Shown in pieces: positions 4,983-31,447 of a stretch of 33,095 nucleotides of DNA (positions are counted from its first letter, which is position 1; each line of letters starts with the position of its first letter). Position numbers and translations under genes: made by a program. The notes below the pieces were generated by a model. That model had not been told where the DNA came from. It searched no databases and saw nothing but the letters and a program-made list of their open reading frames with translations. Origin of the DNA: Planctomycetia bacterium. Its GTDB lineage: Bacteria > Planctomycetota > UBA8108 > UBA1146. Where the stretch lies: NCBI GenBank assembly GCA_009937185.1, contig JAACCY010000163.1, positions 1 to 33,095 on the forward strand, read 5' to 3'.

Positions 4983-6154
4983 TCCTTCTCCGTTGTTTTT
5001 TTATGAGGGACAGGAGCTCGCAATTCCTTGTAGCCATTCTTCAGCTTTCTTTGAATGGCGCCTATCTCCGGGTCCCACCAGCGATTTTTATTTTCGGGTA
5101 CTTGGGCAGGTCTGATCAGGCGAAAGCCGACATGAAATGCATCTGTGCACCACCAAATACTTTTGGGTATCTGGGGATCCCTACGCTGCCATTGAGAAGA
5201 CGATGGTGTTCGTGCCGCTGATCGACAACGGTCTGCATCGTCTTGCCATGATCCGCCGCGAACGACAGCAGGCCAAATCTTCGAGGGCCACACAACCGAC
5301 TCTTCGACGGTGAGAGTTTTCCCTTTTCGATCAGAGTAGGTATCGGGTGCATATCGATCGAGAGTCCATTCAGCGACGTTGCCATGGAGATCGTGAATTC
5401 CCCAAGGGTTGGCCTTGAGAAGGCCTACTTTTCGGTATCCAGAAGCGAGTCCGGGATACCCTGCGTCCGGGTCTTCATACTCGCTGTTATCAAAAATCCA
5501 TGCATGATCGGTGACAGATTCTGATTTGGCAGTGAATGGAAACTCCGCTTCACTTCCACATCTGGCGGCATATTCCCACTCGGCCTCAGTGGGCAGTCTG
5601 AGAAATGTCCCCGTTTTTTTGGAGAGCCACTTGGAAAACTGCATCGCTGCAAACTGGGTGATGTCGGCGACAGGGAATCCGCCCTGAGTTCCAAGTCCCT
5701 CCAGAATTGGACGGGCATCTTGTTCCCAAAGGGGGGTTGGAATACTGACGGCATCAGCCCATTGATTTGATTCGTTTTCTGAAGGATCCAGTCGAATCTC
5801 TTGAAGGATTCCATATTCTTTTCTGAACTCGTCGAACAGGTCCCATGTCACTTCAAATTTCATCATCCAGAAGGGTTCTGCCTGAAGAGTCCAGTTCGGG
5901 CCTTCATCTTTTTTTCGGTTTTTTTCATTCTCTGGAGATCCCATTTTCATCTGAGAAGGATATCCTTCTTCGCCAACAGGAATGGCAACCCAGGTGATCT
6001 CCAGATCTGTGCCAGGAATCTTGTCGGTATAAGATTCCATCGCTTTCCCAAGGACGGTTTCGGAGGGAGTTTTCTTCGCAGTCGTGGGCGAATCAGGTTT
6101 GGGAGGATCCTGCGGTAGTAACAGCATGGTGGTCATCAGAAGAGAGAAGAGCAC
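4979..6154 (-). CDS. SUMF1/FGE-fold exported protein lacking the FGE catalytic cysteines
   Basis: A protein with the formylglycine-generating-enzyme-sulfatase fold: PTEAEWEYAARCG, NPWGIHDLHGNVAEW, VVRGGSWQDDADRCRSAAR and FHVGFRLIR are the family landmarks in order. Aerobic FGE uses a cysteine pair just after the RGGS motif; here that stretch has no such pair, so it is probably not a sulfatase activator but a non-catalytic or differently acting family member. A hydrophobic N-terminal segment (VLFSLLMTTMLLL) suggests export or anchoring. I prefer the GTG at 6154 because AGGA lies five bases upstream; an upstream TTG at 6211 would add a basic n-region but has no ribosome site. It is the first gene of an ATGA-coupled operon with a seven-haem cytochrome, suggesting a structural or assembly role for that complex. 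Confidence 0.8.
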   Translation of the reverse strand: MLFSLLMTTMLLLPQDPPKPDSPTTAKKTPSETVLGKAMESYTDKIPGTDLEITWVAIPVGEEGYPSQMKMGSPENEKNRKKDEGPNWTLQAEPFWMMKFEVTWDLFDEFRKEYGILQEIRLDPSENESNQWADAVSIPTPLWEQDARPILEGLGTQGGFPVADITQFAAMQFSKWLSKKTGTFLRLPTEAEWEYAARCGSEAEFPFTAKSESVTDHAWIFDNSEYEDPDAGYPGLASGYRKVGLLKANPWGIHDLHGNVAEWTLDRYAPDTYSDRKGKTLTVEESVVWPSKIWPAVVRGGSWQDDADRCRSAARTPSSSQWQRRDPQIPKSIWWCTDAFHVGFRLIRPAQVPENKNRWWDPEIGAIQRKLKNGYKELRAPVPHKKTTEKE

Positions 6155-6227
6155 GCGATTCCTTTCCCGAGTCGTATTTCTTGGCACAGATAAATCAGTA
6201 CTTGAGCGCAATGAGGTCGATTAGCGG

Positions 6228-7424
6228 GTGACCGATCACGCCTTTGCGGCTACAAGTGGAATCATGATGGCTTACACGGCACTCCACATCCAGAACTCAG
6301 CGTCCTCTCAGGAGAGATCTCTCCTTCTGCGTTTGGCTCAGGGGGGGATTTTATCATTCTGTCTTTGCTGTGCAGGGTGTTCAGTGATCGGAATTGTAGG
6401 CATGAAATCCTCCCAGCCCTCATCCGGATCCGTTCGTCCTCCAGTAGCAGATTCGCCCATAGGAAAAGTCTCAGCCCCTATAGCAGTGGAGCGATCAGAG
6501 TATTGGCATCCGGCGATGGGGACTCGATTCAAAATCGTAGTATTGACTCCCGTGGGGAAATCCGCCGAAGATTCGGTGGAATCGGCTTTCGCTCGTATTG
6601 ATGAGATTGAAAAGGTGGCATCCGACTGGGACAGGAATAGTGAAGTCAGAGTATTGTGCCGATCGGTGCCACATATTGAACCGATGAAGATGAGCGATGA
6701 TTTGAGACGGATATTGTCTCTGAGCCAAATAATTTATGAGAGATCTTCGGGACGATTTGACATCACCCTTGGAGGCTGGACGAGGCTTTGGCGCCGTTGT
6801 CACAAAGCAGGAAGGATTCCTTCTCCAGAAGAATTGGCGAAGGCCTCTGTAGGGCAAGGGATGCACCATTTGCAGTTGAGTGACCAGGGCTTCTATTGCA
6901 CGGCCTCTCAACTGGCATTGGATCTGGGTGGAATCGCCAAGGGCTTCGCTGTCGATGAGGCTCTGAAAGTAATGATCGATCAAGGCTATCCACACTCGCT
7001 TGTCGATGGTGGAGGAGACATTGCTTTCGGTCCTCCTGCACAGAGCAGTAAAGGCTGGATCATTGAATCACCGAGTGGTGTATTTCAATTTGATCAATCT
7101 GGGGCAGTGGCAACGAGCGGGGATAGTGCTCGATATATTGAAGTGGATGGCGTGCGTTATAGTCATATTCTGGATCCGCGAACCGGATTTGGGCTACAAA
7201 GTTCTAGAACCATCACGGTATACAGCAGAAGTTGTGCGGAAGCGGATGCGATGGCGACTGCACTCTCGATTCCGTCTCAGGTGGTCCCAGACCCGTTACT
7301 TCAGCAACTTCAAGCCTACGATTCGGTTCATATCATTCCTCATGGAACGAATGTCATAGAGCGGTTTGGAGAATTTAAGGGCGTAGAGGTTCAAGTAGAG
7401 CCTGTATTAGAGGCCCCAAATTGA
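6228..7424 (+). CDS. apbE: ApbE family FAD:protein FMN transferase, putative lipoprotein
   Basis: Attaches FMN covalently to Ser/Thr of extracytoplasmic redox proteins, using FAD as donor. ApbE landmarks are present in order: HPAMGTRFKI, SDWDRNSEVR, LALDLGGIAKGFAVDEA, SLVDGGGDIAFG, AVATSGDSARY and YSHILDPRTGFG. The N-terminus has a hydrophobic stretch ending in a lipobox-like CAGC (Cys51), so the enzyme is probably a lipoprotein acting outside the cytoplasmic membrane. The start is GTG at 6228; ATG codons at 6264 and 6267 are alternatives. It is divergent from the SUMF-fold/multihaem cytochrome operon, with only about 73 bases between, which suggests shared control. No flavinylation target (S-G-A-T-type motif) was seen in the neighbouring proteins, so its substrate is probably elsewhere. 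Confidence 0.92.
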   Translation: MTDHAFAATSGIMMAYTALHIQNSASSQERSLLLRLAQGGILSFCLCCAGCSVIGIVGMKSSQPSSGSVRPPVADSPIGKVSAPIAVERSEYWHPAMGTRFKIVVLTPVGKSAEDSVESAFARIDEIEKVASDWDRNSEVRVLCRSVPHIEPMKMSDDLRRILSLSQIIYERSSGRFDITLGGWTRLWRRCHKAGRIPSPEELAKASVGQGMHHLQLSDQGFYCTASQLALDLGGIAKGFAVDEALKVMIDQGYPHSLVDGGGDIAFGPPAQSSKGWIIESPSGVFQFDQSGAVATSGDSARYIEVDGVRYSHILDPRTGFGLQSSRTITVYSRSCAEADAMATALSIPSQVVPDPLLQQLQAYDSVHIIPHGTNVIERFGEFKGVEVQVEPVLEAPN

Positions 7425-11952: not shown

Positions 11953-11979
11953 AAGTGCTTCTTTGCCAGAAGTACTTTT
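11953..11979 (+). promoter_or_regulatory. Ten-pair hairpin directly before the protease ribosome site
   Basis: AAGTGCTTCT (11953-11962) pairs with AGAAGTACTT (11968-11977), one G-T wobble, with a TTGCC loop and a short T tract. It lies about 12 bases before the AAAGGGGA ribosome site. It could act as a weak attenuator or stabilise the 5' end of the mRNA. Confidence 0.4.
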
Positions 11980-12001
11980 CTGTCCTCTGAAAGGGGATGT
12001 T

Positions 12002-15000
12002 ATGGGTTTTCCGAGAACCCTTCTGTCGTGGCTGCTGGTTTTTTGCTGCACCACGGTTTCATTTGCGCAAATGTCTGGCTCAGGAGAGGTGGAAAATAAC
12101 TCTCTAGAGATTAAGACGTCCTCGATTACTGGCCTCGCCAGTATGTTGACAGGTCAGAACGGAAGCATTCTACCGCTACCTGCTGACCTCGAAAAACCGC
12201 TATCAATCCTCTCGGAGTATGGGATTCATTTTGGTATTTCTGATGTAGAAAATGAACTTAAACGAATTGAAACAGTTCAAGATGATCTAGGGCAAAGGCA
12301 TCATCGATATCAGCAGATGTATCGTGGTATTGAAGTCTTTACGGGACGAATCGTGGTTCACCAGAACCGCGAAGGTCAATTCCTTGCGGTGAATGGCGAC
12401 TTTTATCCGATTCGCCCAGGCGTAGCGACTCAGCCATTGATCGCGATTGAAGAAGCTGAATTTCTAGTTGAAGCAGAATTGGGTCTTGTGAATCCAGTAT
12501 TCACGGAACAGAGACTGGTTCTGGTTGATCCCGGCTGGTACGGCGACCCCAGTTCGGGTCAAGTTCGACTCGCTTGGCATATTACAGCGAGTGGAGATGA
12601 CGCTTTCGGCAAGCATGTGTTCGTCGATGCCAGAAACAGAGAAGTTTTTGACCATTGGCCAGCAGTGCCCTCCGCAGTAGATCGAAAAATTTATGATGGT
12701 TCAGGCGGTTCTCTTCCTGGAAACCTAGTACGGGGCGAGGGGGCTGCCCAAACTGGTGATGCTGAACTGGATAATCTTTACGAGTATGTCGGTGATTTTC
12801 ACCGCCTCTTGTTCGAGGGATATAATAGGGACAGCATCGATGGAGCCGGAACACCGCTGATTTCAACAGGAAGATGGAATTCGAACATTTGTCCCAATGC
12901 CATCTGGAATGGTAGTGGAACGGCATTTTGTTCAGGTCTTGCCACTGACGATATCGTCGGTCATGAATTTGGTCATGGCTTGGTCGATTTCACTGCAGAT
13001 TTGATCTATCAAAATCAATCGGGGCAGTTGAATGAATCTTTTGCTGACGTCTTTGGTGAGTTGGTCGATCTTTATAATGGCGATGCATCGGAGGCGGGTC
13101 CTCCAGGCGGAGCACCATGGCCGGGTGGCGGACCCACAGGCACGGATATACCGAACACCGCGAGGGGTGGCTGCAACGAGGCTTCCGTTCGTTGGATGAT
13201 GGGAGAAGACAGTTCCCTGGGTGCGATTCGGGATATGTGGTCTCCCACATGTAAAGGTGATCCGGATCGTGCACTGAGTCCACTCTACGAATCAACATGT
13301 TGTGATCCTGGATTTGATAGTGGAGGAGTTCACTTTGGATCCGGTGTGTCCAACCATGCATTTGCAATGTTGACCGACGGAAAAACCTTTAATGGCTTTA
13401 CTATCCAGAGTCTGGGAGCGATCAAGACCGGAGCCATCTGGTATCGAGCTCTGAGCGTTTATTTGACACCTGCTTCTGATTTTAATGAAGCCTTCAATGC
13501 CTTTGTTCAAGCAGCGAATGATTTGGTGGGGACGACCCCTTCGGATCCGAGGACAGGTGGACCTTCGGCAGGACCCATCACCGCTGCAGATGTGACCCAG
13601 GTGACAAACGCACTGACCGCAGTGGAGATGAATGCTTCCGGGATTTGTGCGTTACCACCTGCTCCTTCCAATGATGATTGTGCCGGATCAGTAGTGATCT
13701 CTCCCGGGCTTCATGACCTTGATAACAGAGGGGCGACGAATAGTGGAGTCGTCGCAGATGAAACGCAGTGTTCAGGTTCATTCCTTGGTCAGGTCTCGAG
13801 AGACGTTTGGTACACGTACTCGCCTCCACAGTCGGGAACGATCACGGTGAGTACCTGCAACATCGGCGGTTTCGATTCTGACCTTCTCGTCTATTCCGGG
13901 AATTGTGGCAGTCTCGTTCAGCAAGGTTGTAATGGAGACGCCTCCGGCTGCAGTAATTTCACTTCTACTATTCAGGATCTACCTGTGACCGGTGGAGTCA
14001 GTTATCTGATTCGTGTCGGTAGCTTCGGAACCTCTGGGGGAGTCGGACAGTTTGAGTTGTCATTCGCTCCAGGTGGTGGAAACCCGATCGAGATTTGCAA
14101 TAACTCTGTTGATGATGACGGAGATGGTGCCATTGATTGCAACGATACGGATTGCGCCGCAGATCCTGCATGTTCAGGAACTCCTACTGAGGATTGTTCA
14201 AATGGAGTCGACGATGACGGCGACGGGCAGATCGACTGTGCAGACGCAGACTGTTCTTCTTCTCCAGCTTGTAATTCTGTCAGTGGGGATGAATGTCTGA
14301 CTGCTGTGGATGCGTTTTTGGGCACGAATCCCGTGAATACGACGACGGCGACCACTTCAAGTGACGCATCTGATTCAAGTCAATGTAGTGGTACTTTCCT
14401 GGGCGGTTTCCACTCTGATGTTTGGTACCGATTTGTCTCTCCTCAGGATGGTTTGATGACTGCGAGCCTCTGTGGATTGGTTGATTTCGATTCTGATCTT
14501 GCAGTGTATCAGGGTGGCTGCGCCGCTCTTTCCCAAGTGGGTTGTAATGGTGACGGAGCCGGTTGTGTAAATTTGAGTTCCATCGTGACCGATGTTCCAG
14601 TGAGTGCTGGGACTGAATACATGATTCGATTGGGCGGCTGGTCTGAGACTGCAGCCGGGACAGGAAATCTTGACATAACAGTGACGACTGGAAGTCAGGA
14701 GAACTGCACCAACGGAACCGATGATGATCAAGACGGTTTGATCGACTGCGAGGACCCTGACTGTTCAGCGGAACCCTCATGCACTCCATTCCCTGGTGAT
14801 GAGTGTAATACGTCACTCCCTCTGATTTTGGGTTTGAACTTCATCGATAATACAGGTGCTTCCGATAGCGCGGAGGGCGTGCCTTCGTGCTCCGGCAGTT
14901 TCCTAGGGGCCATGAGTAATGACACTTGGTATGACATTCTGGTGAATCAAGATGGACTTCTCACTGTCAGTGCTTGTGACATTTTTGGATACGATTCCAG

Positions 15001-16315
15001 GCTCGTTCTCTACTCTAGGTCATGTGGGAATTTGATCCCTCTCGCCTGCGATGGAGATTCATGTGGCGGACTGGGCGCGATCGCTCAAGCGAGTGTTACA
15101 GCAGGACAGGTGATCAAGGTGCGAATCGGTGCTTCTGTTTCTGGGGCGGTGAGCTCAGGAGATATGCAAGTATCGTTGCAATCCAGTTCTCCCGAGAATT
15201 GTCAAAATGGTATCGACGATGACCTCGACGGCCTCGCTGATTGCCTAGATCCCGATTGTGCTGCAGATCCCTCTTGTACCTGTGAGTCGCTGACCGGATT
15301 AGTTTGCGTTCAGGGAACAGGTATCGAAGTGAACCTTTCATGGACGAATGGCGAGTTGTACGACGAGATCAGGGTTTCTAGAAATGGTAACCTTGTTGCA
15401 ATCCTCGGAGGAAATGCAACCAACTTCCTTGATGGCGGCGGTTTCGCAGGAAATAGAGTCTACGCGGTCACCGGAGTTTGTAGTCAGAGCCAGTCCACGA
15501 GCGTCTGTGTCATGGATGTCGTGGAGCCTTCGGGATTCAATGCCATTGCTCCTCTGATCACTTCGAACTTTGATGCTGCAACAGGTATCGGTTCGGTGGA
15601 GCTGGACTTGTTCCTCTCCGAGAATTCTGACAACCCAGGGTTCCCCGGAGATACTCAAGGCTTTTCATTATCTTTGGCCAATGATGCGAGTTGGGTAACA
15701 CCTGTGTCCGTGACGGCTACAGATCTGCTGCAGCAACTCAACGGTTCTTCTGGACCAGATTTTTTCACAGAGAATATCTATACAGATGGAATCAATGTCG
15801 GAGTGGTCTACTCATTTTCCGGTAATAACATCATTGAGTTTGCTAATGAATCAGCAGTGGTTCACGTTTCATACAACACTGTCGCAGCGAACCTGGTAGG
15901 TGCTGTGGATAACGTGATCACACCACTGACATGGTCAGAAAATGTAGGCCCGGTACCGGTAGAGAATCTGATCGTCGTCAATGGAACGGCGATTACACTT
16001 CAACCTGAATCAGGATCCATCACGTTGATTCCTGAACAGGGTGTTACTATCTCAAGAGCGGATTGTAACTCAGACGGTTCATTCAATATTGCTGATGCCG
16101 TGACTTCTTTGGATGGCTTGTTCAATGGCGGATTCATCAACTGTGTGGATGCATGTGATTCCAACGATGATGGATTGATGAATATCGCTGATTCGGTCTT
16201 CTCGTTGGCCGCGCTCTTCAACAATGGAATTCTGCCTCCTCCTCCCTTTGGATCCTGTGGGATTGACCCCACGGATGATTCGCTGACTTGTGAGGAATTC
16301 GACGCCTGTCCCTGA
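12002..16315 (+). CDS. Secreted M4 (thermolysin-like) metalloprotease with repeat and dockerin-like modules
   Basis: A very large secreted zinc endopeptidase (about 1437 residues). Order: signal peptide ending near SFAQ; FTP-type propeptide (QQMYRGIEVFTGRIVVHQN); M4 catalytic domain with zinc motif HEFGH, the typical LIYQNQSGQLNESFAD (third zinc ligand Glu) and GGVHFGSGVSNHAF with the active-site His; three PPC-like beta domains separated by four Cys/Asp-rich NGxDDDxDGxxDC repeats; an Fn3-like segment; a cohesin-like beta region; and a C-terminal dockerin-like repeat pair (DCNSDGSFNIADAV, DSNDDGLMNIADSV). ATG 12002 is chosen for its signal peptide and AAAGGGGA ribosome site; the TTG at 11963 is less likely. 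The protein probably digests extracellular protein, held at the surface or in a complex by its C-terminus. Confidence 0.92.
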   Translation: MGFPRTLLSWLLVFCCTTVSFAQMSGSGEVENNSLEIKTSSITGLASMLTGQNGSILPLPADLEKPLSILSEYGIHFGISDVENELKRIETVQDDLGQRHHRYQQMYRGIEVFTGRIVVHQNREGQFLAVNGDFYPIRPGVATQPLIAIEEAEFLVEAELGLVNPVFTEQRLVLVDPGWYGDPSSGQVRLAWHITASGDDAFGKHVFVDARNREVFDHWPAVPSAVDRKIYDGSGGSLPGNLVRGEGAAQTGDAELDNLYEYVGDFHRLLFEGYNRDSIDGAGTPLISTGRWNSNICPNAIWNGSGTAFCSGLATDDIVGHEFGHGLVDFTADLIYQNQSGQLNESFADVFGELVDLYNGDASEAGPPGGAPWPGGGPTGTDIPNTARGGCNEASVRWMMGEDSSLGAIRDMWSPTCKGDPDRALSPLYESTCCDPGFDSGGVHFGSGVSNHAFAMLTDGKTFNGFTIQSLGAIKTGAIWYRALSVYLTPASDFNEAFNAFVQAANDLVGTTPSDPRTGGPSAGPITAADVTQVTNALTAVEMNASGICALPPAPSNDDCAGSVVISPGLHDLDNRGATNSGVVADETQCSGSFLGQVSRDVWYTYSPPQSGTITVSTCNIGGFDSDLLVYSGNCGSLVQQGCNGDASGCSNFTSTIQDLPVTGGVSYLIRVGSFGTSGGVGQFELSFAPGGGNPIEICNNSVDDDGDGAIDCNDTDCAADPACSGTPTEDCSNGVDDDGDGQIDCADADCSSSPACNSVSGDECLTAVDAFLGTNPVNTTTATTSSDASDSSQCSGTFLGGFHSDVWYRFVSPQDGLMTASLCGLVDFDSDLAVYQGGCAALSQVGCNGDGAGCVNLSSIVTDVPVSAGTEYMIRLGGWSETAAGTGNLDITVTTGSQENCTNGTDDDQDGLIDCEDPDCSAEPSCTPFPGDECNTSLPLILGLNFIDNTGASDSAEGVPSCSGSFLGAMSNDTWYDILVNQDGLLTVSACDIFGYDSRLVLYSRSCGNLIPLACDGDSCGGLGAIAQASVTAGQVIKVRIGASVSGAVSSGDMQVSLQSSSPENCQNGIDDDLDGLADCLDPDCAADPSCTCESLTGLVCVQGTGIEVNLSWTNGELYDEIRVSRNGNLVAILGGNATNFLDGGGFAGNRVYAVTGVCSQSQSTSVCVMDVVEPSGFNAIAPLITSNFDAATGIGSVELDLFLSENSDNPGFPGDTQGFSLSLANDASWVTPVSVTATDLLQQLNGSSGPDFFTENIYTDGINVGVVYSFSGNNIIEFANESAVVHVSYNTVAANLVGAVDNVITPLTWSENVGPVPVENLIVVNGTAITLQPESGSITLIPEQGVTISRADCNSDGSFNIADAVTSLDGLFNGGFINCVDACDSNDDGLMNIADSVFSLAALFNNGILPPPPFGSCGIDPTDDSLTCEEFDACP
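13670..15277 (+). repeat. Intragenic repeats: three PPC-like domains and four DxDGDG Cys-rich linkers
   Basis: PPC-like units start near 13670, 14283 and 14793; each contains a CSGxFLG motif and a D(V/T)WY motif, and a Gly-rich tail. The short acidic repeats (pattern NGxDDDxDGxxDCxDxDCxxxPxC) lie at about 14090-14176, 14189-14275, 14699-14782 and 15194-15277. They probably bind calcium and are disulfide-bonded. The copies are clearly diverged, so the duplication is old. Confidence 0.85.
16055..16230 (+). other. Dockerin-like C-terminal module of the protease
   Basis: Two copies of a D-x-N-x-D-G calcium loop followed by a helix (NIADAVTSLDGLFNGG and NIADSVFSLAALFNNG) about 30 residues apart. 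This layout is common at the C-termini of secreted planctomycete proteins and is used here as taxonomic evidence. It may dock the protease to a partner; no cohesin partner gene is seen nearby. Confidence 0.75.
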
Positions 16316-16690
16316 AGAATTCAGGTTCAAACTAGCGTGGGCCAGTCCATTGCTGTCTCTTTCCCCGGGGTACCTCAAGGTATCCCGGGGAATTTTTATG
16401 ACATTTTCTTCATCTGCTGGGAAGAATATTGCCTGTAGGGGCTGTTATTCAGGCAAATCTGAAGAAGGAGCACCCCCGGTACGCTTGCCCGTGAGGGTTC
16501 CGACTTCTACGATCTCATATGTTGGAAACAAAGACTGGAAAGTCTTTTCATTTCGCCGCCTTCCTTCCAGAAGGAGGTGGCTGATCCGACAGTCAGAGAG
16601 GCTTTTCAATACTCTCTGCCAGAACGCAATTACCACCCGAATCCGGGACTACAGATCCCGTTGCGGAAGAGAGACCAGAGGATGAGTTCA
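16316..16690. other. Intergenic region before the acyl-CoA operon
   Basis: A 375-base gap containing the strong terminator at 16361-16397 and presumably the promoter of the acyl-CoA operon. An open frame across it (to 16685) has no ribosome site and begins within the terminator T run, so I do not call it a gene. Confidence 0.6.
16361..16397 (+). terminator. Strong Rho-independent terminator after the protease gene
   Basis: TTCCCCGGGGTACC (16361-16374) pairs with GGTATCCCGGGGAA (16379-16392), 14 pairs with one wobble, with a TCAA tetraloop, followed by TTTTT. It isolates the protease gene from the acyl-CoA operon. Confidence 0.93.
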
Positions 16691-17572
16691 ATGGATTCCA
16701 GTCAAGCTGCTGATCTTGTGAACGGGATCGAGAAAGTCGCTGTTGTAGGTGCCGGAACCATGGGGAACGGGATCGCTCAAGTGGTTGCCACTTCAGGTTA
16801 CCCTGTCACCATCATCGATCCCTTCGAGGCTTCACTCGAGAGGGCAAAGGGCGCCATCGATAACAGCCTTGGTCGTATGGTGAAAAAAGAAAAAATCACA
16901 GCAGATGATGCCAGTGCAACGATGGAGCGCATCTCCTTTTCTACTTCAATCGAAGCATCTGCGGGGACTCAGTGGGCGGTGGAAGCGATTCCCGAGGTGG
17001 AGTCACTCAAAGAAGAGGTCCTTTCTGGTCTTGATTCTCATGTAGTCGAGGGGGGAGTGATCGCCAGTAATACTTCTTCGATCTCCATTACGAGGTTGGC
17101 CAGTTACACCCAGCGTCCGGAACGATTTGTTGGAATGCACTTCATGAATCCTGTTCCCATGATGAAGTTAGTAGAAGTGATCAAGGGACATAAGACAGTG
17201 GACACAGTCGTTGAGGCGACTATGGAACTTTCCCGTAAACTCGGGAAAGAGCCTTGGCTAGCAGAAGATTATCCAGGGTTTGTTGCCAACAGGATTCTTT
17301 GCCCAATGCTCAACGAAGCGATGTATGCCTTGATGGAGGGTGTCGCAACAAAGGAATCCATCGATGAAGTGATGAAACTGGGAATGGGGCACCCTATGGG
17401 GCCTCTGACTCTCGCTGATTTTGTCGGACTCGATGTATGCCTCAATATCCTTGAGGTGTTGCATTCCGAGTTGGGCGATCCCAAGTACAGACCTTGTCCT
17501 CTTCTCAGAAGAATGGTGGCGGCAGGAGACTTGGGCAGAAAAACCGGTCGAGGGTTCTACGACTACTCTTAA
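16691..17572 (+). CDS. 3-hydroxybutyryl/3-hydroxyacyl-CoA dehydrogenase
   Basis: NAD-dependent oxidation of 3-hydroxybutyryl-CoA to acetoacetyl-CoA. About 293 residues, the usual length for stand-alone short-chain enzymes. The nucleotide site is [16 protein letters not shown]; the catalytic region is [18 protein letters not shown] with the His, and [15 protein letters not shown] and [20 protein letters not shown]-type helices mark the C-terminal domain. I prefer ATG 16691 because AGAGG (16677-16681) is nine bases upstream; ATG 16682 abuts it. A longer frame from 16577 adds a tail unlike the family. It is the first gene of a plus-strand acyl-CoA operon, 16 bases ahead of an acyl-CoA dehydrogenase. 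Confidence 0.92.
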
Positions 17573-17588: not shown

Positions 17589-18794
17589 ATGCTGGACAGC
17601 ACCGGAATCGAGACAAATGAAGCTGCGGGGAGACTCGAAGCAATATTGGGGCTCTCTGTTCCCGAAACTCATCGTTATATTTACGACGAAGCGAAGCGTA
17701 TCGCTGATGAGATTCTCATTCCTGCAGCGAATCTCCATGACAGGGAAGAATCTTTTCCTGAGGATCAGGTTCGAATCCTTGCTCAAGGTGGCTTCATGGG
17801 AATCCTCGCTCCCAAGGAGTTCGGGGGGCAAGGTCTCGATAATCTGGCTTTGACTCTCGCACTGGAGGAGATAAATCGTGGTTGTGCGTCAACAGGAGTG
17901 ACACTTTCAGTTCACAACTCGTTGTTGTCCAGTCCTCTTCTCCACTTTGGAACAGATGAGCAAAAAGCCAGATTGTTCCCAGGACTTGCTTCCGGAGAAT
18001 CCATGGGGGCATATGCCATCACTGAACCGGATCATGGTTCCGATGCGTTGTCGATTGAAACAACTTGTCGCCGTGAAGGTGATGAATGGATTTTAAACGG
18101 AACGAAAGCCTGGATTACAAATGGTTCTAGGGCAGGCACGATCATCACATTTGCAACGATGGATCCTGCATTGCGATCAAAAGGAATTAATGCATTCGTG
18201 GTAGACCCAACGATGCCAGGTTTCTCTGTCGGGAAAAAAGAACTCAAACTCGGTATTCGAGGATCTGACACTGTTCAATTGGTGTTTGATGAAATGCGTG
18301 TCCCTGCTGAAAATCTATTGGGAGAAGAAGGACAGGGATTCAAGATTGCTATGCACACTCTCGACGGTGGGCGAATTGGCATTGCGACTCAGGCGGTGGG
18401 TATTGCTCAAGCATGCCTAGATGTCGCGGTTGATTTTGCAGAAGGCCACGAGATGTTTGGGCGTAGACTTGCAGACAATCAGTTGGTGTCTCACAAAATC
18501 GCAGATATGGCGACTCGAATCGAGGCTTCCCGATTACTCACCTACAGAGCAGCCCTGTTAAAAGATGCTGGAAAGCCTCACAGTCGACAAGCATCGATGG
18601 CGAAACTGAGTTCTTCAGAGATTGCGAATGATGCTGCGCGGATGGCACTCGAAATTCATGGAGGAGCAGGGATAGGGCGACAGTCCCCCATCGAAAGATT
18701 ATTCCGAGATGCGAAAATCTGCGAAATTTACGAAGGCACTAGCCAAATCCAGAGACTGGTGATCTCTCGCCATGTCCGACCGGACCGGGGGTAA
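17589..18794 (+). CDS. Acyl-CoA dehydrogenase, short-chain type
   Basis: FAD-dependent alpha,beta-dehydrogenation of an acyl-CoA, passing electrons to ETF. The substrate loop AYAITEPDHGSDA, the flavin-site WITNGS, the helix LDGGRIGIATQAVG and the C-terminal EIYEGTSQIQRLVISR are all present; the Glu of YEGT (codon 18732-18734) is the usual catalytic base of short- and medium-chain enzymes. Butyryl-CoA or a branched short chain is a fair guess from the operon (hydroxybutyryl-CoA dehydrogenase, MeaB, thiolase) and the nearby icmF. ATG 17589 follows GGAAG at suitable distance, and the TAA abuts the ATG of meaB, so the genes are co-transcribed. The 401-residue length is slightly above the typical 380. 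Confidence 0.93.
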   Translation: MLDSTGIETNEAAGRLEAILGLSVPETHRYIYDEAKRIADEILIPAANLHDREESFPEDQVRILAQGGFMGILAPKEFGGQGLDNLALTLALEEINRGCASTGVTLSVHNSLLSSPLLHFGTDEQKARLFPGLASGESMGAYAITEPDHGSDALSIETTCRREGDEWILNGTKAWITNGSRAGTIITFATMDPALRSKGINAFVVDPTMPGFSVGKKELKLGIRGSDTVQLVFDEMRVPAENLLGEEGQGFKIAMHTLDGGRIGIATQAVGIAQACLDVAVDFAEGHEMFGRRLADNQLVSHKIADMATRIEASRLLTYRAALLKDAGKPHSRQASMAKLSSSEIANDAARMALEIHGGAGIGRQSPIERLFRDAKICEIYEGTSQIQRLVISRHVRPDRG

Positions 18795-19718
18795 ATGTCC
18801 TCCCGCACAGTAGAAGAACTGGTCTCGGGAATCCTTTGTGGACAGCGCAGGGATTTGGCTCAAGCCATCACTGCGGTGGAACAAGATGAACTTAAAGCAG
18901 ATGCTTTACTTTCAGCTCTGCCTCCCGCACCCGGTGCCTTTCGGCTTGGACTGACAGGTGCGCCGGGAGTTGGTAAGTCGACATTCATCTCTAAAGTGGT
19001 TCCTCTACTGATTGAGTCTGGAGAGAAGGTCGCTGTTTTGGCAGTTGACCCGACCAGTCCGGTGACGGGTGGAGCATTACTGGGTGATCGCGCAAGAATG
19101 TCGAGTGATATGGGAGACGCGGGTTGGTTTCGTAGCTTAGCAAGCCGGGGGTCGACGAGTGGAGTTGCAGGTTGCACCGATCACGCAGCAGAGATACTCG
19201 CGAGGGCCGGCTTCGGAATCATCATCATCGAAACAGTTGGAGTTGGCCAACTTGAGGTTGAGATTGCAACAGAAGCCGATCAATCCTGGTTGTTACTTTC
19301 TCCCGAAGGCGGAGACGCAATACAACTCCTTAAAGGTGGAGTACTTGAAGTTGTACAACGAGTCATTGTGCACAAGAGTGATAGACCCGGTGCTGAAGAG
19401 CTGATGCGTTGGGTTGAAGAGGCTGCTAGAGATCAGGGTGCCGCTGACCCCGTTGCAGTCAGTAGTCAAACAGGCATAGGCCTGAACGAAGTCGTGGATC
19501 TTGTTCTGTCCGCAGCGAAAGCGCAAAGATCCAAACCGGATGAAGGTCGTTCAAAAGAGCGGCTTCGACGGAGACTGTTGCGCAGGGCAGAACAGGAATG
19601 GATTAAGAAAGGCCTAGAGGATTCTGGAGGTGAGTCGCAAATTGATCGGCTCGTTGATCAGGTCTTCGAGGGACAAATTGAGGCGAGAGAAGCTCTCGCC
19701 AAGTTAACTGATCGCTGA
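18795..19718 (+). CDS. meaB: MeaB/ArgK-type GTPase, mutase chaperone
   Basis: A G3E-family GTPase that loads and protects adenosylcobalamin in methylmalonyl-CoA-type mutases. The P-loop is TGAPGVGKST, followed by VDPTSPVTGGALLGDRARM and the switch ETVGVGQLE. The G4 guanine-recognition motif, normally NKxD, reads HKSD here (His codon 19371-19373), while icmF's own G domain keeps NKSD. The C-terminal dimerisation helix is present (RLRRRLLRRAEQEW). It sits between two acyl-CoA dehydrogenases with the start touching the preceding stop. No separate methylmalonyl-CoA mutase lies in the window, and IcmF carries its own G domain, so the client is either elsewhere or unusual. Confidence 0.92.
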   Translation: MSSRTVEELVSGILCGQRRDLAQAITAVEQDELKADALLSALPPAPGAFRLGLTGAPGVGKSTFISKVVPLLIESGEKVAVLAVDPTSPVTGGALLGDRARMSSDMGDAGWFRSLASRGSTSGVAGCTDHAAEILARAGFGIIIIETVGVGQLEVEIATEADQSWLLLSPEGGDAIQLLKGGVLEVVQRVIVHKSDRPGAEELMRWVEEAARDQGAADPVAVSSQTGIGLNEVVDLVLSAAKAQRSKPDEGRSKERLRRRLLRRAEQEWIKKGLEDSGGESQIDRLVDQVFEGQIEAREALAKLTDR

Positions 19719-19780: not shown

Positions 19781-20923
19781 GTGATTCGTTTCGAAGAACA
19801 TCACCAAGAGATTCGGGAGATGATTTCCGACTTCTCCGATGACAAAATCGCTCCTCGTGCTGAGCATTTGGATGAGAGCCAGGGTATTCCTTCTGAAAGC
19901 TTGTCCGAAATCGCAGACCTAGAAATGCTGGGATTAACGATTCCCGAAGAGCATGGCGGGGCTGGATTAGATTTGTTGACGGCTTGCCTCGTCGTAGAAG
20001 AGATTTCTCGAAATTGTGGATCTACAGGCGCCATCGTTGCTACCCATCTCTTTGAAGGCACGTCTGCAATACTCAGATTAGGAGATGATGAAGGAAGAGC
20101 ACGTTGGCTTCCTCAATTGGCTTCGGGTAAAACTCTGGCGACTTTTGCGATGGCAGAGCGAGAAGCTGAATCAGATGCCTCCGCTATTGACGCTTCTGCG
20201 GGTGCGGAAGGTGATGGCTTCGCGATTCATGGTCGCAAGACTTGGATTATGGGAGGGCAAACCGCTGGTTTGACCACCGTCATTGCTCGACGTGGTGAAG
20301 ATAATCTAGAAGACCTTGGAGCTTTTGTGGTCGATCCCACTGTTGAAGGGTGTCGCCGAGAGGCTCATGAAGATCTCTTGGGATTGCGTGGAGCTGGTTT
20401 TTGCGCACTCAATCTTGAAGGTGTGCAACTGCCATCGAACGCTCATCTTTCGGGATGTTCTGGGGGCTGGTCAGACATTCTCAAGGTGGTAGATATGGCC
20501 CGTCTCGGGGCCGCTTCAGTCAGCCTCGGAGTGGCCAGAGGTGCTATTGCTCATGCATTAGAATATTCTTCTCAACGCAAAGCATTTGGTCGGTCGATTG
20601 ATCGCTTCGGAGCGATTCGTGCAATGCACGCTGAGGCTGCGACCGCTGTTGAAGGAGCTCGATTGCTCTTATGGAGAGCTGCGGGTCTTCTCGATGCGGG
20701 TAAGTCAGCGGGCAGGGAAGTGTCCATGGCAAATCTGTCAGCGAAGCAGGCCGCTTACAAGGCTGGCCGCGATGCCGTGCAGATTCTCGGAGGAAATGGT
20801 TATAGTCGCGAGTACCCCGTCGAGAGGTGCTATCGGGATATCCAAGCACTCTCTCCATTTGGTGGTGGTGAAGATTTGCAAAAAATATTGGTAGCTCGTT
20901 CGATGGCAGGAGTTCGATCATGA
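19781..20923 (+). CDS. Divergent acyl-CoA dehydrogenase-family protein lacking the usual catalytic Glu
   Basis: A 380-residue protein with the full acyl-CoA dehydrogenase fold: N-terminal helical domain (IPEEHGGAGLDLL), beta domain (HGRKTWIMGGQ), and C-terminal ARLGAASVSLG, QRKAFGRSI and GGNGYSREYPVERCYRD. The YEGT tetrad is replaced by FGGG (catalytic Glu position is Gly, codon 20861-20863), and the alternative base of isovaleryl/long-chain enzymes is Ala in DMARLG. The TEPxxGSD flavin loop is altered to AEREAESDA. It may therefore use another base or catalyse a different reaction. GTG 19781 is chosen because GGAAGGA lies six bases upstream; a GTG at 19766 lacks one. It overlaps the thiolase start by ATGA. 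Confidence 0.88.
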   Translation: MIRFEEHHQEIREMISDFSDDKIAPRAEHLDESQGIPSESLSEIADLEMLGLTIPEEHGGAGLDLLTACLVVEEISRNCGSTGAIVATHLFEGTSAILRLGDDEGRARWLPQLASGKTLATFAMAEREAESDASAIDASAGAEGDGFAIHGRKTWIMGGQTAGLTTVIARRGEDNLEDLGAFVVDPTVEGCRREAHEDLLGLRGAGFCALNLEGVQLPSNAHLSGCSGGWSDILKVVDMARLGAASVSLGVARGAIAHALEYSSQRKAFGRSIDRFGAIRAMHAEAATAVEGARLLLWRAAGLLDAGKSAGREVSMANLSAKQAAYKAGRDAVQILGGNGYSREYPVERCYRDIQALSPFGGGEDLQKILVARSMAGVRS

Positions 20924-22101
20924 GTCGCGCTGTCATCTGTTCGGCTGTCAGAACCCCCATCGGTAAGTTTCTCGGAGGCTTGTCTGAACTGAGTCCTGCC
21001 GATCTCGGAGTCGCTGCTGTTGTTCCTGCTCTAGAAAGGGCAGGAGTCTCCGCAGATCGCGTTGGAGAATTACGGTTCGGTTGTGGACGTCAGGCGGGGG
21101 GTGGCCCCAATGTCGCTCGCCAAATCGCAGTACGGTCCGGGATCCCGGTGACTTCCACTGCAGTGACTGTGAATATGGCCTGTGGTTCTGGCTTACTCGC
21201 CATCATGGAAGCCAGAGATGCTATCGAGCGCGGCGAATTTGAAGTAGTTATTGCTGGCGGTACAGAAAGCATGTCTCAACTTCCATTTTACATGTTGGGA
21301 GCTCGAAAAGGGTACCGTCTCGGACAGGGTGAACTTGTAGATGGAATGTATCGTGATGGTTTTCAGTGCCCCATGGCCGATCAATTGATGGGAGCTACTG
21401 CAGAAAATCTTGCAGAAGAATTTTCTATCAGCAGGGAAGAGCAGGATTCTTACGCAGTAGAAACGCAGCGAAGATGTCAGCAGGCCCGTGAAGAAAACCT
21501 GTTCGCAGATGAGATTGCGCCAGTAGAGATTCCTGGTCGTAAGGGACCGACTGTGATCTCAGTGGATGAGCATCCTCGAGACAATTCCAATATGGCCTCG
21601 ATGGCCAAACTGAAGCCGGTCTTCAAAAAAGAAGGAACCGTTCATGCGGGGAACTCTTCCGGAATCACAGATGGCGCATGCGCTCTTGTTCTTGCCAATG
21701 AAGAAGTGGCCAAAGCTGAAGGCTGGCCCATTTTGGCTGTGGTGGGAGCATCTGCTCGAGGGGGAGTTGAGCCCCGTAGAATGGGAATGGGACCTGTTCC
21801 TGCTATAGGGGAATTGCTCACACAGACTGGTGCGAGCATCAGTGATTACGACTTGGTCGAGATCAATGAAGCTTTTGCTGCTCAAGTTTTGGCGTGTCTC
21901 AAAGAGGTCGATATCGACAGAGATCGTCTCAATGTCCATGGTGGATCTATTGCGCTAGGGCATCCTATCGGCGCAACGGGAGCCAGGATCGTGACGACAC
22001 TTATTCATGCCGCAAAACGTGGCGGTGGTGGTAAAGGTATGGCTTCGCTTTGTATCAGTGGTGGAATGGGCCTTGCTCTGGATTTAGAAATCAGTTCCTG
22101 A
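20920..22101 (+). CDS. Acetyl-CoA acetyltransferase (thiolase)
   Basis: Cleaves acetoacetyl-CoA (or a related 3-ketoacyl-CoA) with CoA to acetyl-CoA, or runs in reverse. The nucleophilic Cys is in VNMACGSGLLAI, the catalytic His in GSIALGHPIGATGARI and the second Cys in SLCISGGMGLAL; EINEAFAAQ and GTESMSQLPF are further family landmarks. 393 residues is the usual length. The ATG at 20920 overlaps the preceding stop as ATGA, so it is translationally coupled to the divergent acyl-CoA dehydrogenase. It closes the acyl-CoA operon; a second thiolase begins at 32317. Confidence 0.95.
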   Translation: MSRAVICSAVRTPIGKFLGGLSELSPADLGVAAVVPALERAGVSADRVGELRFGCGRQAGGGPNVARQIAVRSGIPVTSTAVTVNMACGSGLLAIMEARDAIERGEFEVVIAGGTESMSQLPFYMLGARKGYRLGQGELVDGMYRDGFQCPMADQLMGATAENLAEEFSISREEQDSYAVETQRRCQQAREENLFADEIAPVEIPGRKGPTVISVDEHPRDNSNMASMAKLKPVFKKEGTVHAGNSSGITDGACALVLANEEVAKAEGWPILAVVGASARGGVEPRRMGMGPVPAIGELLTQTGASISDYDLVEINEAFAAQVLACLKEVDIDRDRLNVHGGSIALGHPIGATGARIVTTLIHAAKRGGGGKGMASLCISGGMGLALDLEISS

Positions 22102-23157: not shown

Positions 23158-24123
23158 TTGGATGATTCAAAAAAATCAGCCGCTGGATATCCCCTAGATC
23201 GACCTAGCGAAGAAATCATGCGGTTAAGAGTCGATCAATTGACTCCTGAACAACATCATGTGACCCAGAAATCGGGAACGGAAGCACCGTTCTGTGGAGG
23301 GTTTCTCGGAGAAAAAGAAGAGGGCACATATGCGTGTGTCGTCTGTGAACTGCCTCTTTTTCGTTCTGAGCACAAATTCGAATCTGGGACGGGATGGCCC
23401 TCCTTCTTTGATACCTATGATCCTGAACACGTTCAGGAAAAATCTGATGCCACACATGGAATGGTTCGTACCGAGATTTGCTGCGCCCGTGGTGATGCAC
23501 ATTTGGGCCACTTGTTTCCCGATGGACCCGCTCCTACAGGAGTGCGTCATTGCCTGAACTCGGCCTCCCTCACTTTTTTTCCTGCGGGAGTTGAGATTCC
23601 TATTGAAGTCAACTTCGCTGACAAGAGTCCTGAATCAGCCCCGGTGGAGAACGGTCGGGCCTATTTTGGCGGAGGCTGATTCTGGGGAGTCGAGGACCGC
23701 TTTGCGGCGATCGATGGCGTGGTCGACGTCATCTCGGGATACATGGGAGGCCATCAGGATAATCCGACTTATGAAGAAGTTTGTTCAGGAGTGACAGGGC
23801 ATGCTGAGGCTGTAGAAGTTCATTACGATTCTTCTCGTGTGAGTTACTCCCGATTGGTCAGTCTTTTCTTCGCTATGCATAATCCGACGACTCCGGATCG
23901 GCAGGGGGGTAACCAAGGCACGCAGTATCGTTCAGTCGCGTTTTGTGATTCCCCTGAAGAGGTTCAGGAAGTGAAACAGAAAATTTTAGCACTTGAGAAT
24001 GAACGTGCATTTGGGGGGAAACCTATTGTGACCCAGATCATCGATAGTGGTCCTACCTTCTGGCGTGCTGAAGAATATCATCAAGACTACTACCAGAAGC
24101 ATAGAGGTTTCTGCTCTCGCTAA
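23158..24123 (+). CDS. msrBA: MsrB-MsrA fusion, putative selenoprotein with in-frame UGA at the MsrA catalytic site
   Basis: Methionine sulfoxide reductase repairing both R- and S-sulfoxides. The MsrB domain (residues about 20-150) has zinc pair CVVC (60/63), [10 protein letters not shown] and catalytic Cys132 in RHCLNSASL. The frame then reads FGGG-UGA-FWGVE: the UGA (23677-23679, codon 174) falls exactly on the catalytic Cys of the invariant MsrA GCFWG motif, and the same frame continues through a complete MsrA domain ([42 protein letters not shown]) to a resolving-type Cys319 and TAA. Read as selenocysteine the product is 321 residues. The TTG start at 23158 has AGGAG eight bases upstream. 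The second zinc pair is degraded (CARG in place of CxxC). Alternative: a Cys-to-stop mutation (TGC or TGT to TGA), less likely given the intact downstream frame. Confidence 0.88.
23677..23679 (+). other. In-frame UGA, putative selenocysteine codon
   Basis: TGA between GGAGGC and TTCTGGGGAGTCGAG in the msrBA frame. All residues on both sides match the MsrA active-site motif, with only the nucleophile replaced. Neither selA, selB, selC nor selD is in the window. Confidence 0.82.
23690..23714 (+). promoter_or_regulatory. Candidate bacterial SECIS stem-loop after the UGA
   Basis: CCGC (23697-23700) and GCGG (23704-23707) form a short stem with a TTT loop about 21 bases after the UGA, with TCGA (23690-23693) and TCGA (23711-23714) able to pair below a 3x3 internal loop. 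The distance fits bacterial SECIS elements in general, but these are poorly conserved and I could not fold the RNA. Confidence 0.4.
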
Positions 24124-29145: not shown

Positions 29146-29233
29146 CCGCTTGGAAATCGCCTTCCTGTAAGAACAGAGTCAATTGAGCCTTCCCTGTGTT
29201 CCAAGTCATGGACAGGGTAGACAAAGGAGCCTA

Positions 29234-31447
29234 ATGATTTCGCATATGTTGAGTTTCAGACCGTCGGTTTGGACGGGGCATTCCAGAATGGAATCCAGAT
29301 TTTCCGTATTACTGGTGTTGGGTCTTCTTCTCGGTGGGGGGATCCTATTTCCCGGCGGGAAATTGGATGCTCAAGAGCAAAGAAATCTCAGGCACATACT
29401 CATTGCTACTGAGAATGTGGCGAACAAGCTTCTTGCCGCTGCTCAATCCGGTACAGATTTTAAGATGTTGGCGAGGAGGTATTCCCTCGATGTCGGCACA
29501 AAAATTCTGGGAGGGGATCTCGATTGGGTTTCTCCCGGTCAGATGGAGCCTGAGTTTTCTCTGGCGGCCTTCAGCATTCCAGAAATCGGAGGATTTGCGA
29601 CCTGCAAAACCCGCTATGGTTGGCACGTGATCCAGTATGTTGATCAAAGGGGGGGCGTAAAAGAGAAGCCTTCAGATAAAGATACGGACAGTGGTGGAGC
29701 GAATCCAGAAACCACTGACAAGGGGAAGGCAGAAGTTAATTCTCCCAAAAACCCGCTTCCTGTGAATCCTTCTGCAGATCGTAATGAAGATCTTGCTTGG
29801 CAGATTTCTTTTTCTGACAGGATCTACACACCGGGAAAGAATGGCGAGGTTCCACAGATCGATTTGACGATCAGAGCGACCAATAAAAGTGAAACGGCGC
29901 TGAAGGTCATCGATCCTGTGCTGTGGCCTTTAGGTCTCATCGTTCGCTATCAGTTCGGTAAACTCAATGTTCCAGTGAACGCTCCTGAAGGGTATTCCAG
30001 ATCGAAGTTCAAGCTGGAAGAGATTGCTCCGGGCGCAACAATCCAAAGAAGTTTCAGGTTACAAGATTATGTCGACGTCAGTCAAAACTGGCCGATTGTT
30101 CGTGTGATTTGGAGAGGTGACACCCTGTTCGACAGATCTTCGAAACAGGAAATCTTGCCCACGGGCCAAGACTCTCTTCAAAAGATGAAATCTCGTTGGA
30201 GATTTTATCGTAGTGGTGAAGCGAATTTCAATCTCCTGCCAGAAGTGAAGTCGGATGAGCGCTGGGTCGTATGCATCTTCTCCTCAGGGAGAATCTGGAT
30301 TGAGTTGAACAACAATGAGGCTATCCCCGGGTTGAATGCCGCAATTGTCAGCAGTATTCGAAAGGGTGATTGGGACAAGCGTCCTTTTGACTTTTTTAAT
30401 AACCAAGTGATGCGATTTGGTTTGAGTGCCGAGTCTACAGGGAATCAAGGAATTGAGATTCCTTCTAGTGCGCAGTTCACAGGAGTTGTGAACAGGGGTG
30501 ACTTCATAGCATTACCGACGAAATTGTCGAATTCTGCACTGGGATTTGGCCAGAGATTTGGTCTTTCGATCACAGACGGCGCTCAACTCTCAACAAAAAA
30601 TGGATCCATCATCGGTCGGATTATTCTCGAAGAAGGGGATCCGCTGAGAAGACTTGAGGAACGGAATGGCGAGAAGAAAACTTCTCAGATCACTCTCGCC
30701 CTCGCTTGGCCCTACGATTTGATTCCAGACAGAACTCGTAAGGCGATGGAGAAGTCTCCGGAAGAGAAAGTTGACCTGCAGAAAAAAGAAGCTTCGAAAT
30801 CGAAAGAAAAAATCGTAGAAACGAAGAAACCTATTCTTCAGAAATCTCCAAAGGAGATTCTTAAGAAGGAAGAGGAGAGAGCGAAGATCAGGGAAAAGGC
30901 AAAACAGTCTACCCTTGAAAAGGTGATCGAGAAAAATCCCGCTCAGGTTCTCGTTCCACTGCCTAGAATCCAAATGGAGACCAGTAATGGTACATTCCTC
31001 ATCCAGTTGTTTGAGAATGATGCTCCAAATACGGTCGCTCATTTCATCCATCTCGTCGAATCCGGATTTTATGACGGCCTGACTTTCCACAGAAGAGTCC
31101 GAACTGATTCGAGTGAGGGATTCGTTCAGGGAGGCAGCCCAGACGGTACAAGTGCGGGGAAACTGGATTACACCATTGTCGATGAGCCCAGTATTAGAAG
31201 GCCGGTGAAAAAATACTCAGTCGTGATGGCGAGGCATCACACCCGTGATAACTCTGCGAGTACGCAGTTTTTTATCGCTCTGGATGATCTCGATTATCTG
31301 AATGGTCAATACACTGTTTTCGGCGAAATCATTAACGGTCAGCAATCTGCAATGCGGCTCGACTCTCGAAGCACTATAAAAAGTATGAAGGTGCTTTCGA
31401 AAAGAGATCGGGAATATAAATTCAAAAAGTTTAATCAGAGTCCGTAG
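29234..31447 (+). CDS. Exported peptidyl-prolyl isomerase with parvulin and cyclophilin domains
   Basis: A 737-residue extracytoplasmic folding factor. Order: N-terminal signal or anchor with hydrophobic residues 25-39; parvulin-type domain at about 51-135 (RHILIATEN, GGDLDWVSPGQMEPEF, CKTRYGWHVIQYVDQR); a central beta-rich region (about 175-500) I do not recognise; a long Lys/Glu-rich, probably coiled-coil linker (about 510-575); and a C-terminal cyclophilin domain (about 578-735; FHRRV with the catalytic Arg, FVQGGSPDGTSAGK, STQFFIAL, YTVFGEI). ATG 29234 has AAAGGAG upstream; TTG-type starts near 29183 would lengthen an already long leader. Combining two unrelated PPIase families in one chain is uncommon. 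It probably assists folding of secreted proteins. Confidence 0.88.
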   Translation: MISHMLSFRPSVWTGHSRMESRFSVLLVLGLLLGGGILFPGGKLDAQEQRNLRHILIATENVANKLLAAAQSGTDFKMLARRYSLDVGTKILGGDLDWVSPGQMEPEFSLAAFSIPEIGGFATCKTRYGWHVIQYVDQRGGVKEKPSDKDTDSGGANPETTDKGKAEVNSPKNPLPVNPSADRNEDLAWQISFSDRIYTPGKNGEVPQIDLTIRATNKSETALKVIDPVLWPLGLIVRYQFGKLNVPVNAPEGYSRSKFKLEEIAPGATIQRSFRLQDYVDVSQNWPIVRVIWRGDTLFDRSSKQEILPTGQDSLQKMKSRWRFYRSGEANFNLLPEVKSDERWVVCIFSSGRIWIELNNNEAIPGLNAAIVSSIRKGDWDKRPFDFFNNQVMRFGLSAESTGNQGIEIPSSAQFTGVVNRGDFIALPTKLSNSALGFGQRFGLSITDGAQLSTKNGSIIGRIILEEGDPLRRLEERNGEKKTSQITLALAWPYDLIPDRTRKAMEKSPEEKVDLQKKEASKSKEKIVETKKPILQKSPKEILKKEEERAKIREKAKQSTLEKVIEKNPAQVLVPLPRIQMETSNGTFLIQLFENDAPNTVAHFIHLVESGFYDGLTFHRRVRTDSSEGFVQGGSPDGTSAGKLDYTIVDEPSIRRPVKKYSVVMARHHTRDNSASTQFFIALDDLDYLNGQYTVFGEIINGQQSAMRLDSRSTIKSMKVLSKRDREYKFKKFNQSP

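Follow-up and report, generated by a model that had tools for sequence, protein, structure and literature searches.

Two acyl-CoA dehydrogenases with reciprocally decayed FAD sites, encoded by neighboring genes in marine Planctomycetota, as probable subunits of one heteromeric enzyme

Two neighboring genes of a planctomycete operon, each coding for a protein of the acyl-CoA dehydrogenase (ACAD) superfamily, probably encode the two subunits of one obligate heteromeric ACAD, presumably of alpha2beta2 architecture with two FADs. Both genes lie within a window of 33,095 nt (the whole stretch of DNA that was analysed), which forms the start of contig C26 in a genome of 2.77 Mb (254 contigs, 87% complete). 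Judged from aligned residues, the beta protein (19781-20923, + strand; the proposed non-catalytic subunit) has kept the half of the FAD site that an ACAD lends to its partner and lost the half that holds the flavin ring and performs the chemistry, while the reverse applies to the alpha protein (17589-18794, + strand; the proposed catalytic subunit). Alpha and beta are therefore likely to work only in combination.

In ordinary ACAD tetramers, each FAD is bound at a dimer interface, the flavin ring being held by one subunit, which also provides the catalytic base. The partner subunit lends Arg281, Gln349 and Gly353 (MCAD numbering) to the ADP half of the cofactor. For human SCAD, a structural description lists F152, L154, S155 and T187 as own-subunit contacts to the flavin ring, G160, S161, T364 and E396 as own-subunit contacts to the ribityl and pyrophosphate groups, Glu392 as the base, and R297, Q365 and G369 as FAD contacts of the adjacent subunit (PMC13027082). 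MCAD numbers were obtained from these human SCAD contacts through alignment, and the informative positions are 136, 141, 168 and 376 for the own-subunit half and 281, 349 and 353 for the partner half.

The reading frame of beta is intact, starts with a GTG codon at 19781 that is preceded by AAGGAA, and begins with an N-terminus (MIRFEEHHQEI) common to its relatives. Membership in the ACAD superfamily is evident from Pfam matches above cut-off for the N-terminal, middle and C-terminal domains (PF02771, 109 bits; PF02770, 57 bits; PF00441, 131 bits), and among solved sequences the best match is human SCAD with 229 bits. A single-chain AlphaFold2 model (pLDDT 92.4, pTM 0.93) likewise matches human SCAD best (7y0a; Z 54.3 over 379 residues, 34% identity). 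The first-pass annotation had described both known base positions as lost and the TEPxxGSD loop as altered, and both descriptions are borne out across 17 genomes. Gly361 (codon GGT at 20861) aligns with the catalytic Glu of the YEG motif (MCAD E376), so that beta reads FGG at this place, and Ala240 (GCC at 20498) aligns with the helix position that provides the base of isovaleryl-CoA dehydrogenase. The loop reads AEREAESD, and Ala125, Glu130 and Met157 occupy MCAD positions T136, G141 and T168. On the other hand, Arg266 (20576), Gln334 (20780) and Gly338 are retained at MCAD R281, Q349 and G353. If a catalytic ACAD is recognised by a Glu at either the YEG or the helix position, beta is excluded, as none of the 17 orthologues has either Glu; in them, E376 is replaced by Gly (15), Ser (1) or Ala (1) and G141 by Glu (16) or Asp (1). 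A slip of the alignment can be dismissed, since beta matches human and rat SCAD without a gap between the helix position and the C-terminal motif and all orthologues agree. Similarly, the Glu of the GGGED stretch, which had been put forward as a substitute base, is rejected because it varies among relatives (GGSDS, GGSDA, SGSDD, ASPPE). Beta is accordingly predicted to lack a catalytic base. The helix position is Gly in 93/101 other ACADs used as controls; since the absence of a helix Glu is thus usual in short-chain-type ACADs, only the YEG loss and the losses in the flavin loop are informative.

The alpha protein is an ACAD of the short-chain type that shares 50% identity with rat and human SCAD, and its single-chain AlphaFold2 model (pLDDT 89.4) has rat SCAD as the best structural match (1jqi; Z 57.3, 50% identity). 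It contains the base Glu382 (18732) and the flavin contacts Thr145 (18021) and Thr177 (18117). At the partner-facing positions, however, His287 (18447) stands at MCAD Arg281 and Glu355 (18651) at MCAD Gln349. Alpha had initially been credited with all canonical residues, which does not hold in view of these two replacements. Consequently, the view of the operon as holding one normal and one odd paralogue is right for the odd member only: in alpha, the half of the FAD site that is lent to the partner has decayed, and the supposedly normal paralogue is specialised as well.

The residue counts were based on 17 alpha and 17 beta rows, one alpha row being cut by a contig end, and on 101 other ACADs as controls. 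These comprised 41 proteins from the neighborhoods read at the outset and 60 further hits from the phylum, the latter being a non-random, hand-picked set of higher-scoring hits from outside the order among the matches listed. The strands of the control rows were set by BLAST, and L094, which represents the same gene as L002, was excluded as a duplicate from residue counts, scan and tree. None of the 17 beta rows exhibits T/S136, G141, T/S168 or E376, and all of them carry R281, Q349 and G353. In alpha, T/S136 and G141 are present in 16/16 readable rows and T168 and E376 in 17/17, as is G353, while R281 is found in 3/17 and Q349 in 0/17. Controls are nearly invariant in both halves, with T/S136 and G141 in 101/101, T/S168 in 100/101, E376 in 99/100 readable rows, R281 in 101/101, Q349 in 98/101 and G353 in 96/101. 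A closer look at alpha position 281 shows His in 13, Lys in one and Arg in three proteins (G007, G012 and G016), i.e., a basic residue in 17/17; at position 349, 16 proteins have Glu and one has Ala. As two other ACADs of the source genome carry Asp and Glu in place of Q349 while keeping R281, the Q349 change alone proves little. MCAD Q292, a further partner contact, runs against the pattern, since beta has Gly or Glu there, although the base-containing ACAD2 proteins of other families in the class already have Gly.

A scan without preselected sites covered the 87 columns that are conserved in at least 95% of the controls, with a deviation being called where 50% or more of the rows of alpha or of beta differ. 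Twenty-five columns deviate, 8 of them in alpha only, 17 in beta only and none in both. Five of the eight alpha-only columns are R281, Q349 and three columns just after Q349 (the GGxGY..EY stretch); for the other three, no connection with the FAD site is known. The beta-only columns include E376, T136, G141 and T168. Zero overlap between the two lists would arise by chance with a probability of about 0.16 (arithmetic from the counts) and is not striking; the weight of the scan lies in the contents of both lists.

All 17 genomes in which the beta gene was found belong to one order of marine Planctomycetota: 16/16 genomes of the family, including the source, and G016, the sole genome of a sister family that was searched. 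Records with 85-98% identity across beta are mostly marine-type Planctomycetota assemblies such as Planctomycetia bacterium TMED53. When 294 genomes of the phylum were searched with a profile, beta orthologues in the sample scored 548-710 bits (548 for G016) and the next protein 383 bits, a drop that leaves no beta relative outside the order in this set. Plasmid records reached at best 36.8% identity to beta among the matches listed. Because the losses in beta are common to 17 genomes and the gene is under purifying selection, it represents neither a pseudogene nor a sequencing slip but a maintained protein. The dN/dS value rests on the comparison with the nearest relative, G005 (98% identical), since almost all other pairs gave saturated or undefined dS; it amounts to 0.067, with 0.038-0.048 for the cluster neighbors. 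Beta does lie on a long branch with many substitutions at conserved sites, as a decaying gene or an assembly artefact would. However, the frame is open in 17/17 genomes, the clamp residues are invariant in all of them and the predicted fold is confident over the full length, so that there is next to no chance of decay or error being the explanation.

The pair is embedded in an operon of acyl-CoA metabolism. A 3-hydroxyacyl-CoA dehydrogenase of the 3-hydroxybutyryl-CoA type (16577-17572, + strand; assigned by profile matches) is encoded by the first gene of the cluster and followed by alpha. A MeaB-type GTPase (18795-19718, + strand; Pfam MeaB, 197.5 bits; NCBIfam lao, 210.9 bits and below the cut-off of 240.75) is located between the two ACAD genes, and beta is followed by a thiolase (acetyl-CoA acyltransferase; 20920-22101, + strand; TIGR01930, 431.8 bits, above cut-off). 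The order alpha-MeaB-beta-thiolase is kept in 17/17 genomes. The fused isobutyryl-CoA mutase/GTPase IcmF is encoded at 32-2872 (+ strand) and passes NF045497 with 1509.8 bits (cut-off 1500), although its 5' part is cut at the contig start; it adjoins the cluster in other families of the same class. A crotonase gene is present in the window at 31472, and one ETF alpha gene was found elsewhere in the source genome. In several loci of other planctomycete families (L051, L053, L054, L055, L056, L057 and L061), IcmF or a stand-alone large subunit resembling that of methylmalonyl-CoA mutase is located near MeaB and two ACAD genes, which suggests that the mutase is linked to both dehydrogenases in these families.

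Elsewhere in the window, a single protein (29183-31447, + strand) combines an N-terminal parvulin-type (PpiC) with a C-terminal cyclophilin-type prolyl isomerase domain, i.e., the same activity from two unrelated folds in one chain. An M4 (thermolysin-type) metallopeptidase of 1450 residues (11963-16315, + strand) carries four acidic double-disulfide repeats and galactose-binding-like domains. Methionine sulfoxide reductase genes with a SelR (MsrB-type) and a PMSR (MsrA-type) domain lie side by side at 23158-24123 (+ strand). A multihaem cytochrome c-like protein with NapC/NirT and paired CXXCH domains (3255-4982, - strand) is accompanied by an FGE-sulfatase-domain protein (4979-6211) and an ApbE-like FAD:protein FMN transferase at 6228.

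In the proposed enzyme, alpha would supply the base, the flavin pocket and the substrate pocket, and beta would lend its clamp residues to the FAD bound by alpha without being catalytic itself. The other two sites of the tetramer, formed by the flavin pocket of beta and the clamp of alpha, would be dead and decayed in both chains. In these dead sites, the acidic residue of beta at MCAD 141 may pair with the basic residue of alpha at 281 and thereby replace the FAD pyrophosphate. IcmF would most likely provide the substrate, butyryl-CoA or another C4 acyl-CoA, and the neighboring hydroxyacyl-CoA dehydrogenase and thiolase could take the product further. Alpha is 50% identical to SCAD, and the cluster together with IcmF would cover the surrounding steps, so that the reaction is likely to be the dehydrogenation of such a C4 thioester. 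An obligate alpha2beta2 enzyme is the best explanation of the residue pattern, as this pattern is what the steroid-type architecture predicts: one chain with base and flavin contacts and another that lacks the base but has the ADP-side contacts, co-encoded in 17/17 genomes with a MeaB-type gene in between. In ChsE4-ChsE5 and ChsE1-ChsE2, own-subunit and partner contacts to FAD are split between alpha and beta in the same manner (PMC11153573), and steroid-type heterotetramers are described as having two active sites and two FADs, with the heteromer being essential for activity (PMC8399759). In human SCAD, replacement at a position lost in alpha (Q365H) is reported to block tetramer formation in the homomer (PMC13027082).

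Base-less members of the family with a chemistry of their own do exist. According to one study, YEG is replaced by GGG in the benzylmalonyl-CoA dehydrogenase IaaF, where decarboxylation is proposed to take the place of deprotonation, and other branches show AGG (desulfinase), SGG (carnitine) or YGG (pimeloyl) (PMC8360864). With FGG in this position and acyl-CoA genes as operon neighbors, beta might be such a flavoenzyme, for example a decarboxylating dehydrogenase of malonyl-type CoA esters that relies on the release of CO2 instead of abstracting a proton. This is rather unlikely: the flavin-ring and pyrophosphate contacts T136, G141 and T168 are gone in 17/17 betas, whereas three ACADs with a helix Glu in place of the YEG base, namely CaiA of E. 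coli and two plasmid-encoded proteins of Sulfitobacter, keep T/S136 and T/S168. Moreover, the residue replacing Glu varies, unlike in a tuned site, and the reciprocal loss in alpha would be left unexplained. Desulfination of the 3-sulfinopropionyl-CoA type, as had been suggested at first, or a related lyase reaction is very improbable. The desulfinase family does lack the Glu while keeping the ACAD fold, and solved desulfinases match the beta model with Z 49.2 and 48.9. These values are below that of SCAD (54.3), and the best matches are SCAD and butyryl-CoA dehydrogenases. Membership in the desulfinase family (NF042439) is rejected with 228 bits against a cut-off of 600, the base-containing alpha scoring higher (264 bits), and no sulfur gene was found among the neighboring genes searched.

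A different role for beta, as a non-catalytic assembly factor or regulator with an ACAD fold that stays outside the active site of alpha, would make alpha a homotetramer of the usual kind whose FAD clamp is modified. The invariably basic residue at alpha 281 and the occurrence of Glu or Asp at 349 in other ACADs that keep R281 speak for this possibility; as R281 persists in three alphas and a phosphate could also be bound by His or Lys, alpha might keep homomeric activity. An accessory role is nevertheless given only a slim chance, since it explains neither why beta retains exactly R281, Q349 and G353 in 17/17 genomes despite the loss of its flavin pocket nor why R281, present in 101/101 controls, is lost in alpha only.

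The simplest history of the pair is a merger of two separate enzymes, ACAD1 and ACAD2, into a single heteromeric one in the ancestor of the order. In two families of the same class (f4 and f6), an ACAD1-MeaB-ACAD2 arrangement is located after the hydroxyacyl-CoA dehydrogenase or IcmF, and all tested residues are canonical in both ACADs. In a maximum-likelihood tree of 75 proteins, from which the trait columns were removed, the 17 alphas form one clade (100/99) inside the ACAD1 group. The 17 betas also form one clade (100/99), on a long branch whose free placement is unreliable. A tree joining beta to four ACAD2 proteins of the class was not rejected (AU p 0.756, with 16/76 aligned rows excluded as long, partial or near-identical) and exceeded the quick free tree in likelihood. 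As the losses trace back to only a few branches, the 17 genomes cannot be counted as independent cases. Base loss in beta and Gln349 loss in alpha are common to all of them, sister family included. Arg281 of alpha appears to have been lost later and at least twice, with a change to His in genera g1, g3 and g4 and to Lys in G010. An origin separate from that of the steroid-type heteromers is likely, since both chains score below the cut-offs of the IpdE2 and Pim models and alpha falls within the ACAD1 group of planctomycetes (in a tree without ChsE). The fuller scenario is put forward tentatively: obligate heteromeric ACADs may have originated a second time, independently and with surviving intermediates, in that two unlike homotetrameric ACADs of one operon merged, Arg281 was lost later and a salt bridge came to occupy the dead site. 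In another class of the phylum, a second degenerate ACAD (L086 on G043:C116, about 5644-6777) lies beside a canonical ACAD1; it has NDG for YEG and Ala at T168 and keeps R281 and Q349, and its neighbor has Ser at MCAD G353. It is possibly an independent, less advanced instance of the same reciprocal decay.

If correct, these findings describe how the reciprocal decay of duplicated active sites can make a homomeric metabolic enzyme obligately dependent on two genes, and each step could be tested with close relatives that have both proteins intact or that represent different stages of decay. They also imply that, before new chemistry is proposed for a base-less ACAD, the partner-facing residues of its neighbor should be taken into account. 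No report of a heterotetrameric ACAD pair from planctomycetes was found in the open-licence literature searched.

Heteromeric ACADs are already known from steroid degraders and have been suggested for enzymes of dicarboxylic acid metabolism. The steroid alpha2beta2 enzymes (ChsE4-ChsE5, ChsE1-ChsE2, IpdE1-IpdE2, Scd and ScdC1C2 pairs) resemble the planctomycete pair in having two co-encoded ACAD chains, of which one contributes the Glu and the flavin pocket and the other reaches the ADP part of FAD, giving two sites per tetramer (PMC11153573; PMC8399759); the planctomycete assembly would follow the same plan. In contrast to these enzymes, each of the two chains descends from or groups with planctomycete ACADs of the short-chain type, whose counterparts in related families are canonical, their base is located at YEG instead of the helix, a GTPase gene separates them, and the operon is of a C4 type instead of a steroid type. 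Assignment to IpdE2 (NF050027, cut-off 450) was rejected with best scores of 28 bits for beta and 49 bits for alpha, and ChsE or other steroid chains were absent from the best 50 listed structural matches of either model, which is no evidence against kinship. The PimC/PimD pimeloyl-CoA dehydrogenase and its beta-proteobacterial dicarboxyl-CoA homologues are similar in their paired ACAD genes, and a heterotetramer has been suggested (PMC12543098); Pim is, like beta, listed as lacking the YEG Glu (PMC8360864). However, PimC and PimD models (TIGR03204 and TIGR03203, cut-offs 624 and 653) gave only 28 and 83 bits for beta and 113 and 89 bits for alpha, which rejects both assignments, and PimC had no match at E 1e-80 among the 294 planctomycete genomes. 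IaaF and 3-sulfinopropionyl-CoA desulfinase share the missing YEG Glu with beta (PMC8360864), yet each of them is an independent enzyme, whereas beta has also lost its flavin contacts. Their operon settings appear to differ too: IaaF would be expected in an indoleacetate (iaa) operon, and the genes adjacent to beta code for a hydroxyacyl-CoA dehydrogenase, an ACAD, MeaB and a thiolase. Human SCAD and clostridial butyryl-CoA dehydrogenase share the fold and provide the closest sequences for both planctomycete chains; these enzymes are homotetramers with four complete sites (for human SCAD, according to PMC13027082), whereas each planctomycete chain would contribute half a site.
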